Shown here: in pieces, positions 2,164-27,069 of the stretch | How positions within the stretch are numbered: the stretch's first letter is position 1 | Layout: the number at the start of each line of letters is the position of its first letter | Origin: a virus | DNA: 27,069 nucleotides | Virus record (IMG/VR): IMGVR_UViG_3300037234_000191 | Location: 1 to 27,069 of that record | Direction: 5' to 3' (one strand) | Made by a program: the position numbers and the translations under genes | The notes under the pieces: model-generated | The model's database searches: none | What the model was told of the DNA's origin: nothing | What the model saw: only the letters and a program-made list of their open reading frames with translations

Positions 2164-3579
2164 TTATTGTGATATTCTCAATTCACTCTGACTTACAATG
2201 TCAAATGAAAGAGTATCTTTTATTGTTGTTATTTCATTATTCGATGATACCTTGATATCTAAGTAGTAGGTGTTTGGAATAAGGCTTTCAGTATCAAGTA
2301 AGAAATAGTTATGATTGAATGACCTTTCAACATCTTGGAAATCAATAACCGTATATTCGTTTCTACCTTCCTTAACGTAAAGTCTGTATTGTAATCCATC
2401 AATCAAAGCTGTTTGATTAGTTGTGTATGGAATCCTAGCAGTTACTTGTACACGTCTAATATCACCTCTCTTAATTCTCTCATCTCTTCTAATACCAGAC
2501 ACATTGAATCCGTACTTCTGAGGCATTGTATCGTTGTTTCCTATGTTGTAGTACTTGTTACTGTCAACTAACGCAAAGTCCATCTCTATATCTGGTCTAG
2601 CAACACCACCAATGGTAATTCCACCCCATATATCATTAAACAAGTAACAATCGGTATAAGTACTTGTGGTTGGTACAATTACTTCAACGCAGTAAACACC
2701 CTTTGTGACGTGAGTTACGTCATTAGATGTAATACTAGAGAATACGGCACCATTATTATCAATGATTTGTACACTTGGATTAACATCTAAGTTAGTTGGT
2801 TCTCCACCAGCATTAACATATAAATAAAGTTTGTTTGGTTTATCTAAATAAAAGTTTGCTCTGTCGTCAGTTATATGACAATCATAAACTGTCTCAACAT
2901 GTGGTTCATAGAATGTTTGAGTGTGTCTAGTAAAAAATCCAACGTATTGATATGAACCAGTCTCGGTTAATTCTAAACTTCTAGTAAATGCAAGACCTAA
3001 CCCGTGGTTTGTGCCACCAGTAAGGTATCCATTAACGATATCAGAAATATCTAATTCGATATTCTCATTACCTTGCTCAAAGTGAATTGTTTTAGTTTTG
3101 GCGGTAGTTGACCCAGTGTAGGTTCCGTTACCACCAGACCAAGAAATGTTTGTCTGTGCTTCAACCCAGTTGGATGGGCAAATAGATGTTGATGTTGCAT
3201 CACCACCAATGAATATAGAGCAAGCATCGTAGTCGTAACCTACACCCTCATCCCAAGTTTGTCCTATTGGGAATAATATAAGGTCGAATGAACATGCTCT
3301 ATCTTTACCATCACAAGTGGTCTTACCCATTAATTCCTTATCGAATGAACCAGTGTTGGTTAATCTTAGTGTGTGTTTAAGTTTACTTAAATCTGTATAT
3401 GTTCCACCAGTGTGTAATTCTTTTAGATTTGTTTCATCGAAGTAAAATAAGAATCTACTGTATTTGTTCTCAGCATCTCTACCGCCATAGAATAATTCAG
3501 CTACAGGGTTTCTACCCGTATTAGTGACGTTGTTGTATATAATAGTATTATTTCTATCAAAAAATGTTCTTTTTACCAT
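2164..3579 (-). CDS. Probable virion structural protein, 471 aa
   Basis: A large beta-rich, Thr/Gly/Asn-rich protein without signal peptide or membrane segment. Residues 1-230 describe strands such as SRFLFYFDETNLKEL, RLTNTGSF, and NIELDISDIVNGYLTGG with LGLAFTRSLE, which recall the carbohydrate-binding-like jelly-roll modules (DNRLRE type: paired beta strands with D-[IV]-T-x-x-[VI]) found on virion and cell-surface proteins. The C-terminal half has Ig-like stretches (GVYCVEVIVPTTSTY; TYYLDIKVSSNNEI). It sits 30 bases after the baseplate OB-fold gene and carries the TATTTATA box 12 bases before its ATG. A baseplate, tail or fibre-associated protein is likely; the exact part is unknown. The leader also has AAAAGGAAAC, a possible weak ribosome site. 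Confidence 0.6.
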   Translation of the reverse strand: MVKRTFFDRNNTIIYNNVTNTGRNPVAELFYGGRDAENKYSRFLFYFDETNLKELHTGGTYTDLSKLKHTLRLTNTGSFDKELMGKTTCDGKDRACSFDLILFPIGQTWDEGVGYDYDACSIFIGGDATSTSICPSNWVEAQTNISWSGGNGTYTGSTTAKTKTIHFEQGNENIELDISDIVNGYLTGGTNHGLGLAFTRSLELTETGSYQYVGFFTRHTQTFYEPHVETVYDCHITDDRANFYLDKPNKLYLYVNAGGEPTNLDVNPSVQIIDNNGAVFSSITSNDVTHVTKGVYCVEVIVPTTSTYTDCYLFNDIWGGITIGGVARPDIEMDFALVDSNKYYNIGNNDTMPQKYGFNVSGIRRDERIKRGDIRRVQVTARIPYTTNQTALIDGLQYRLYVKEGRNEYTVIDFQDVERSFNHNYFLLDTESLIPNTYYLDIKVSSNNEITTIKDTLSFDIVSQSELRISQ

Positions 3580-6690: not shown

Positions 6691-7086
6691 TTAAGCGTTA
6701 GTATCATTGTTAGTGTTTTGGTTATCCCCACCGTTCTTTATGATGTCTCTAATAGTCTTAAATTCACTTAATTGAGCCTTACCTTCGTATCTTTCTTCCA
6801 CGGCTTTCTCTTCGTTTCCACCATGTTTTAAAATATCACTTTGTAATTTAGCGATATCTAATTTAATTTTGATACTAGAGTCTTTTACCTTCTGAGCATC
6901 GATTTTAGTCTTAGCTATTTTTGTTGCATCTTCCACGTCTTCTGGGGTTGTCGAAGATTGCAACTCATTAATTGTCCTGTTAGCGTCATTAATTTGTCCA
7001 CAGGCATCATTATATACCTCTTGCATTAAACCCTCTAATGCGGTTGTATTATTAACTTTAATTTGTTGTTTTTTCTTTCTTGGCAT
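6691..7086 (-). CDS. Helical coiled-coil protein, 131 aa; possible small terminase or virion protein
   Basis: A very basic N-terminus (MPRKKKQQIK) is followed by long helices (ALEGLMQEVYNDACGQINDA, IKIKLDIAKLQSDILKHGG) and an Asn/Thr-rich tail. Small size, helical oligomer-like body and position directly downstream of the late sigma gene make a small terminase subunit (gp16-like) or capsid-associated factor thinkable, but I do not see a decisive motif. It begins a new block after a 27-base gap and carries the TATTTATA box 13 bases before its ATG, so it may be the first gene of the virion transcript. Confidence 0.5.
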   Translation of the reverse strand: MPRKKKQQIKVNNTTALEGLMQEVYNDACGQINDANRTINELQSSTTPEDVEDATKIAKTKIDAQKVKDSSIKIKLDIAKLQSDILKHGGNEEKAVEERYEGKAQLSEFKTIRDIIKNGGDNQNTNNDTNA

Positions 7087-25363: not shown

Positions 25364-25987
25364 TTATATTTTTTTTCTAATAATCGTCTTATAATCATAA
25401 GGGATTTGAGTTGTATCAACAGAACTAAGGAAATAGTTAAGTACAATACCTAATTCTTCACCATTCATATTAGTTGAATCCATCGAATCAATTAAATCTT
25501 TCAACTTACCAACAATAATCATTTGAGTATCACCTAAATCTTCAATGTCTGGAACATTGTTTCTGTTTACATCACTATTAGTGCCCTTCTTTACAATATC
25601 ACCCCTATTCGATTTTTTAGCTATAATATCTTCAACCATCTTTCTCATTCTTTGCTCTGCTGTTAACTCTGATTCATCAATTGCTTCTGACTCACCAAGA
25701 TTACTAGCTATAGGATTACCAGACCCTCTCCCAGTACCTTGACCATAACCATACGTTAATGACCACCACCAATTACGGGGTTGGATTGCATTAGCTGCAT
25801 GTTTATTGGTTGTTAAGGCTAATCCTTTATCATCACCTGGCATATTAATAGGTCCTGTTTTAACATCAACACCCTTATTGTATTTCTCATCACCACCAAT
25901 AACGCCACCATCATCATTGACGAATTCATCTATTGTTTTAGATTCAATTACTATGTTTTTGAACTCTTTCTTTTTAAATGTTGCCAT
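25364..25987 (-). CDS. Hypothetical virion-block protein, 207 aa
   Basis: I place the start at ATG 25987 (MATFKKKEFKNIV) rather than 26077; the upstream stretch is low-complexity hydrophobic (VLKFIVIRFIINIPILPYIY) and lies across the divergent promoter region, and the fibre-gene leader mirrors this start exactly. The 207 residues include an acidic N-terminal segment, a glycine/tryptophan stretch (NWWWSLTYGYGQGTGRGSG), and helical segments (AEQRMRKMVEDIIAKK; TQMIIVGKLKDLIDSMDS). No family recognised. It is the first gene of the five-gene unit, preceded by the TATTTATA box 14 bases upstream. Confidence 0.5.
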   Translation of the reverse strand: MATFKKKEFKNIVIESKTIDEFVNDDGGVIGGDEKYNKGVDVKTGPINMPGDDKGLALTTNKHAANAIQPRNWWWSLTYGYGQGTGRGSGNPIASNLGESEAIDESELTAEQRMRKMVEDIIAKKSNRGDIVKKGTNSDVNRNNVPDIEDLGDTQMIIVGKLKDLIDSMDSTNMNGEELGIVLNYFLSSVDTTQIPYDYKTIIRKKI

Positions 25988-26001
25988 AATTATACTTTTT
26001 A

Positions 26002-26009
26002 TATAAATA
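26002..26009 (-). promoter_or_regulatory. TATTTATA box before the 207-aa gene
   Basis: On the minus strand TATTTATA ends 14 bases before the ATG at 25987. Read on the plus strand the same bases are TATAAATA, the T4 late -10 octamer, facing the fibre gene at 26049 with a distance that would give a 30-40 base leader. Either reading is possible; see findings. Confidence 0.4.
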
Positions 26010-26025
26010 TAAGGAAGTATGGGAA

Positions 26026-26033
26026 TATTTATA
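26026..26033 (+). promoter_or_regulatory. TATTTATA box before the fibre gene
   Basis: On the plus strand TATTTATA ends 15 bases before the ATG at 26049. On the minus strand these bases read TATAAATA facing the 207-aa gene at 25987. This is the mirror image of the box at 26002. Confidence 0.4.
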
Positions 26034-26048
26034 ATAAAACGTATAACT

Positions 26049-27069
26049 ATGAACTTTAGAACAAGATTAGATATCACAAACAGACAAGTGAAACAATATG
26101 AAAAAACAGGTGTAGTATTATCTGGTGCTTCTGTGTTTGGTTTACCTTATAGTGCTTTAACTGCTGGACCAAACCTAACAATGACAGCAGAAACATATAA
26201 TGATTTATTATTGACAAGTACATATTCTGGTAATACTGGTGATACAGTGTATGCGTTTGCTGACCCTAGAATGTACATTGATGAGGGTGATTTAATACCG
26301 TTAACACCTAGTAATAGCGGAACAACACAATTTGCTGGTCCAACATGGCTTGGTTATAATATGTTCACTACTGTTGATGGTTATACTGGTTGGACAGCTT
26401 ATTCTGCTGTGACTTATACAGTTAGTCCAGATAGTATGATAGATTTAGGTGGTGGTTCATATTCTGGTCAAGTTTCTCACGATTTTAGTGTTTATAGTGC
26501 AAGTAGTCTTGATTTTACTGGTAGTACAACTTGGGTTGATGTTTCTGGTATTACTAGAACTCATGATTTAGTTGTTAGTAATGGTGCAGTTACAGGTTAT
26601 GTCTTAACTTGTGATGATTCAACTGGTAAGGCAACATGGCAACCTTCAAGTGGTGGGACAACTGGCGGTACTAATTTGTGGACTGCTGGTACTGGGAGTA
26701 ATTCGGTTGTTCAAGCTGGTAGTGGTGGTATTGCTAGTGGTTTAACATCAATATCGCAAGGTATTAATACAATTGCTGGTGGTGATGGTTCACACGCTGA
26801 AGGTATACAAACAATAGCAAGTGGTGATTATTCTCATGCTGAAGGTGAATCGACAATCGCAAGTGGTAGAAGTGCACATGCTGAAGGTGCCACTACAGAG
26901 GCTTATGGTGATTATTCTCATGCTGAGGGACAAGCTAATCAAGCACTTGGTGACTATTCTCATGTTGAGGGTAGAGATAGTATAGCTTCTGGAAATGTCG
27001 CACATGCTGAGGGTCAAACTACGTTAGCCAGTGGTGATAATAGCCATTCTCAAAATAGATATACTGAAG
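26049..27069 (+). CDS. Tail fibre / adhesin with YadA-head-like repeats (partial, runs off right edge)
   Basis: The only plus-strand gene; 340 codons are visible and the frame is still open. ATG 26049 is chosen because it mirrors the start of the opposite gene; an in-frame ATG at 26019 lies too close to the AAGGAAG before it. The first 200 residues are Thr/Ser/Gly-rich beta-type (YNDLLLTSTYSGNTGDT, GYTGWTAYSAVTYTV). Residues about 185-205 (GYVLTCDDSTGKATWQPSSG) are the module that usually links a fibre shaft to its distal part. From about residue 238 it has seven 14-residue units with the SHAEG signature, as in the left-handed beta-roll head of trimeric adhesins and in many phage fibres. It should bind the host surface; a C-terminal chaperone or tip domain lies outside the window. 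Confidence 0.8.
   Translation, partial: MNFRTRLDITNRQVKQYEKTGVVLSGASVFGLPYSALTAGPNLTMTAETYNDLLLTSTYSGNTGDTVYAFADPRMYIDEGDLIPLTPSNSGTTQFAGPTWLGYNMFTTVDGYTGWTAYSAVTYTVSPDSMIDLGGGSYSGQVSHDFSVYSASSLDFTGSTTWVDVSGITRTHDLVVSNGAVTGYVLTCDDSTGKATWQPSSGGTTGGTNLWTAGTGSNSVVQAGSGGIASGLTSISQGINTIAGGDGSHAEGIQTIASGDYSHAEGESTIASGRSAHAEGATTEAYGDYSHAEGQANQALGDYSHVEGRDSIASGNVAHAEGQTTLASGDNSHSQNRYTE
26760..27053 (+). repeat. Seven 42-bp coding repeats (SHAEG beta-roll units)
   Basis: Seven tandem units of 42 bases encode 14-residue repeats of the form G-x-x-T-I-A-S-G-D-Y-S-H-A-E. The aligned GD(Y/G/N)(S/A)HAE core is kept while the flanking residues vary (SHVE in unit five, SHSQ in unit seven). They are degenerate at the DNA level, so not a recent amplification, but could still recombine to change fibre length. 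Confidence 0.8.

Follow-up and report, generated by a model that had tools for sequence, protein, structure and literature searches.

The late promoters of phage T4 consist of an 8-bp box located approximately one turn upstream of the start, with no conservation at −35 (PMC2988020). The bacterial bidirectional promoters described by Warman and Grainger share a −10 element for both strands, with transcription start sites usually 18 bp apart (PMC10268837), and the housekeeping promoters of Bacteroidetes carry TTTG at around −33 and TAnnTTTG at −7 (PMC7366714). No description of a phage promoter with the box TATTTATA was found in the papers searched. Here, we analyse two oppositely oriented copies of this box, found between two divergent genes within a 27,069-nucleotide stretch of viral DNA (IMG/VR record IMGVR_UViG_3300037234_000191; hereafter, the window). 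In our view, they likely correspond to two late-type promoters that stand back to back without overlapping, one for each neighbouring gene, of which both the transcription and the late timing are deduced from the sequence.

Symmetry and Conservation of the Divergent Pair

The region between both genes contains the near-perfect inverted repeat with a start codon at each end that had been noticed in the original prediction (Table 1), and its analysis confirmed that the arms (ATATTTAT-ATAAAAAGTATAATTATG aligned with ATATTTATAATAAAACGTATAACTATG, positions 25,985–26,051) are identical in 24 of 27 columns, with one gap and two mismatches, and extend to both ATGs. A gap-free search yielded only a 15-nt arm pair with an 87% match, and the count of inverted repeats in the window (15-nt arms, at least 13 pairs, spacer of up to 30) was three, versus 1.4 ± 1.6 expected from first-order Markov simulations. 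The quality of the repeat alone is within chance for such an AT-rich window (68% A+T, 32% G+C) and, as symmetry alone is not rare at this composition, the case rests on the comparison with relatives. Each arm includes one copy of ATATTTATAWWAAAA, the sense strand of the box being TATTTATA, which is the reverse complement of the T4 late box.

Table 1. Features of the divergent locus and related elements in the window.
Feature	Position	Strand	Remarks
Conserved gene, 207 aa, starts MATFKKKEF	25364–25987	−	Divergent partner
ATG, minus-strand gene	25987–25985	−	
Promoter-like element, minus-strand gene	25996–26010	−	TATTTATATAAAAA at 26009–25996; half-site ATATTTAT at 26010–26003
Spacer between half-sites, 14 bp	26011–26024	.	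Constant length, diverged sequence in divergent orthologues
Promoter-like element, plus-strand gene	26025–26039	+	ATATTTATAATAAAA; motif found singly upstream of other genes
ATG, plus-strand gene	26049–26051	+	
Fibre-like gene, MNFRTRLDITNRQVKQ..., continues past window end	26049–27068	+	phrog_25468
Single element copy TATTTATAATAAAA	7094–7107	−	7 nt ahead of ATG of gene 6691–7086
Single element copy TATTTATATTAAAA	3586–3599	−	6 nt ahead of ATG of gene 2164–3579
Candidate recognition factor, 259 aa	7114–7893	−	Weak sigma-70 region 2 similarity, C-terminal helical segment

A scan of viral contigs for two outward boxes returned 77 stretches, versus 8 for a convergent control pattern. In 51 of these 77, the octamers TATAAATA and TATTTATA are separated by a 16-bp gap, equivalent to 14 bp between the half-sites ATAAATAT and ATATTTAT, and nearly all of the 51 pairs, with about two exceptions, sit between the same two genes. 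The fibre genes were also gathered by coding sequence only, by means of a degenerate coding-sequence pattern, thus avoiding the bias of a motif search. This approach recovered 70 stretches, 61 of them divergent, and in all 61 both half-sites were perfect matches, with a spacing of exactly 14 bp and their centres 22 bp apart. The other nine correspond to copies of the fibre start without the divergent pair, of which five carry one box. The pair is therefore non-random, as the divergent arrangement is conserved even in orthologues chosen by coding sequence. The comparison with related phages that had been put forward as a possible refutation did not refute the reading as a bidirectional late promoter, the symmetry being kept there alongside both genes, and a chance inverted repeat, with which the symmetry alone would fit, was rejected on this conservation.

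Across 45 distinct sequences, the spacer showed 58% mean identity, with a conserved A-rich part that is asymmetric, and the distance from the half-site to the fibre ATG ranged from 12 to 21, mostly 16–18. Selection had also been proposed on the bases between the box and the ATG (GTATAA), a claim that found no support, as the nearest relatives have CATATTAATTATG, CAGATTAATTATG, or TAGATAAATATG on the fibre side. Since other divergent box pairs exist with gaps of 10, 13, and 22 bp, a spacing of 14 bp is not needed in general. One of the relatives also contains a second pair (G014:C1:16802-16832) in which the boxes are much closer, with 3 bp between the 14-mers.

Regarding the genes on both sides, the minus-strand partner is conserved in the relatives, with sizes of 154–212 aa, and gave no match to PHROG or Pfam. 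Relatives of the fibre-like protein contain SHAEG repeats and, judged by eye, a C-terminus resembling an intramolecular chaperone.

The Box as a Single Element Upstream of Genes

The motif TATTTATAWWAAAA shows four copies in the window, all of them in the sense of the gene and 6–9 nt ahead of an ATG. In the relatives, too, most copies of the element stand alone, oriented with the gene and only a few nt ahead of an ATG, and isolated copies of ATATTTATAWWAAAA precede ATGs by 8–24 nt throughout the T4-like phages that are distant relatives of the cultured Flavobacterium Immutovirus. In eight genomes with 1,171 predicted genes, leaving out the divergent locus, the sense TATTTATA was found 108 times at 8–24 nt ahead of starts, versus 19 for TATAAATA, and the box is carried by around a tenth of the genes. 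Similarly, the pattern ATATTTATNNNNAA...ATG gave 145 matches in 14 phage records, versus 10 for a reversed-pattern control. The sense TATTTATA is apparently favoured also in the segment of Microcystis phage Mel-JY01 that we inspected. No match was found when a long composite pattern was scanned in bacterial genomes, and a BLAST search of named phages with a 44-mer consensus produced weak matches only.

Among the relatives, the box is present upstream of TerL, and also of a PhoH-like gene and a homing endonuclease. In the cultured Immutovirus immuto, a T4-like Flavobacterium phage, it precedes the terminase, the gp20 portal, the tail tube, a tail fibre, and other genes, and it lies farther off, at 25–30 nt, ahead of the sheath and the baseplate hub. 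A capsid family of the gp23 type was present in 12 of the 15 records examined. No late-type box was detected directly upstream of the major capsid genes of six relatives (G001, G002, G003, G010, G012, and G014), the leaders of which are A-rich, so that these genes must be read from farther upstream or from another promoter. As separate observations, several genes bearing the putative promoter in a 362-kb phage (G012:C1) resemble homing endonucleases, one of them confirmed, and the frame of the terminase large subunit at G010:C1:25488 onward encodes 1445 aa, with two intein-like insertions apparent by eye.

In addition to the box, single sites are rich in T from −18 to −14 relative to it, and this T-rich patch may consist in part of the U-tracts of the terminators of upstream genes.

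Candidate Recognition Factor

The divergent protein with similarity to sigma region 2 (Table 1; E = 0.013 against the Pfam domain) is the best candidate for recognition of the box. Its structure model, which is poor (pLDDT 64, pTM 0.35), gave no match below E 0.001 in the PDB, most of the top hits being sigma factors; likewise, no PHROG match was detected, and no match to T4 gp55 was found. A sigma-region-2 protein was identified by domain in 14 of the 15 phage records examined, and viral contigs yielded at least 459 stretches with homologues of the window protein. Since larger relatives also encode ordinary sigma-70 proteins, its assignment is that of a candidate only.

Interpretation of the Divergent Element

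The back-to-back arrangement fits a bidirectional late promoter with mirrored halves, which was among the options initially considered and is the one supported here, as each arm matches a promoter-like motif found genome-wide in gene sense. According to this reading, each promoter would have a −10-like box, ATATTTATAWWAAAA, beginning around 24 nt ahead of its ATG, the left one directing transcription of the small gene on the minus strand and the right one that of the fibre gene. By analogy with the T4 spacing, initiation would take place near the A-run and generate very short leaders of around 6–12 nt, with specificity presumably conferred on the host core polymerase by the divergent sigma-like protein. 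This promoter class would be used by a large T4-related phage group, probably of Bacteroidota, the distant tie to immuto pointing to a probable host of this phylum for the window phage.

In the divergent pair, the opposite half-site occupies the position of the T-rich patch of single sites, which suggests that it acts as an upstream contact for the opposite promoter. If each half-site in this way also provided the other promoter with its upstream contact, the invariant 14-bp spacing, with two helical turns between centres, would be explained, and the two polymerases would be mutually exclusive. It is conceivable, though we regard it as rather unlikely, that the whole 44-bp element constitutes one bipartite promoter, with each −10-like box serving also for upstream recognition of the opposite promoter. 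In such a case, the 22-bp phasing would be fixed by the geometry of the sigma–polymerase complex, and a hard-wired, mutually exclusive ratio of the fibre gene to its partner would operate across an entire T4-like clade with a late box in the sense opposite to that of T4.

The orientation of the boxes could also be the opposite if the functional sense were TATAAATA, as in T4, with each arm driving the gene on its far side and overlapping transcripts, as in the gene 4/53 and inh/segE gaps of that phage. The gap between the divergent T4 genes 4 and 53, TATAAATA-N7-TATTTATA, with 26–28 nt from TATAAATA to the ATG, has indeed the same box order as the window, where the boxes are separated by N16. 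Such face-to-face promoters require an excess of TATAAATA at 35–50 nt from starts, and none was found in the eight genomes (seven TATAAATA versus seven TATTTATA), the enrichment being that of TATTTATA close to the ATG. Moreover, only the box in TATTTATA sense adjoins the ATG in single sites. The T4 sense was consequently rejected on genome-wide orientation, and we find this explanation improbable.

Comparably low is the probability that we give to an operator for a dimeric DNA-binding regulator controlling both genes jointly, as contemplated in the original prediction. The dyad symmetry, the exact two-turn spacing between centres, and the extra conservation within the spacer would agree with it, but isolated half-sites also precede many other genes, with a sense and a distance to the ATG that resemble a promoter rather than an operator. 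In addition, conservation within the spacer is asymmetric, and the analysis revealed neither a candidate regulator nor anything else that points to one.

Even less probable, to the point of being very hard to sustain, is an element acting at the RNA level, either a hairpin or an A/U-rich leader for translation initiation without Shine-Dalgarno. The box lies near the ATG in all the genes that have it, the arms are able to pair, and covariation links some of their positions (columns −3 to −1 and columns 30 to 32), but these are A/T variants also present in single sites, in sequences that share descent. A box carried by such a minority of genes is unlike a general translation signal, and a fixed spacing between boxes on opposite strands is meaningless for two separate mRNAs. 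The length of the spacer is kept where its sequence drifts, so an RNA leader cannot account for the element. Furthermore, the spacer is not palindromic, with positions 8 and 21 pairing in none of the 45 sequences, and neither of the expected transcripts would hold both arms; a hairpin was thus discarded on spacer asymmetry and on the logic of two transcripts.

For a large group of T4-related phages, most of them uncultivated, the reading as back-to-back promoters provides a candidate late-promoter consensus together with a candidate sigma factor. It also warns that a box looking like TATAAATA can be given the wrong orientation when T4 serves as the model, and the perfectly kept spacing leads to a precise and testable prediction on polymerase recognition.

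Comparison with Known Promoters

With bacterial bidirectional promoters, the locus shares a short, near-symmetric sequence between divergent genes and the expectation of mutually exclusive polymerase binding, although those have a single shared −10 element, whereas two complete and separate boxes, with 14 bp between half-sites, are present here. The housekeeping promoters of Bacteroidetes resemble our element in the T-rich upstream patch and in a box beginning with TAnnT, but neither box of the window has TTTG, on which basis a host promoter of this class was rejected.

The late promoters of T4, served by the gp55/gp33/gp45 system and recognised by a gp55-type sigma factor with a C-terminal epitope that binds the clamp, have in common with the element an 8-bp box made only of A and T, followed by an A/T-rich segment downstream. 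They are also located ahead of structural genes, such as gp23 and TerL, in T4-type phages, a position that corresponds here to TerL in the relatives and to the terminase, gp20, and tube genes in immuto, but not to the region directly upstream of the major capsid gene. T4 promoters lack conservation at −35; the single sites here show the T-rich patch, possibly explained in part by terminator U-tracts. The candidate sigma factor is longer than that of T4, with extra C-terminal helices. Divergent T4 genes are likewise separated by paired late boxes in two places (L349:3350-3372 for gene 4/53 and 38022-38043 for inh/segE), in the order of the window and with a far shorter gap. The sense of the T4 box, used as a positive control, is TATAAATA, and that of the box described here is TATTTATA; since the genome-wide sense is the reverse of that of T4, the boxes of the window stand back to back, whereas those of gene 4/53 face each other.
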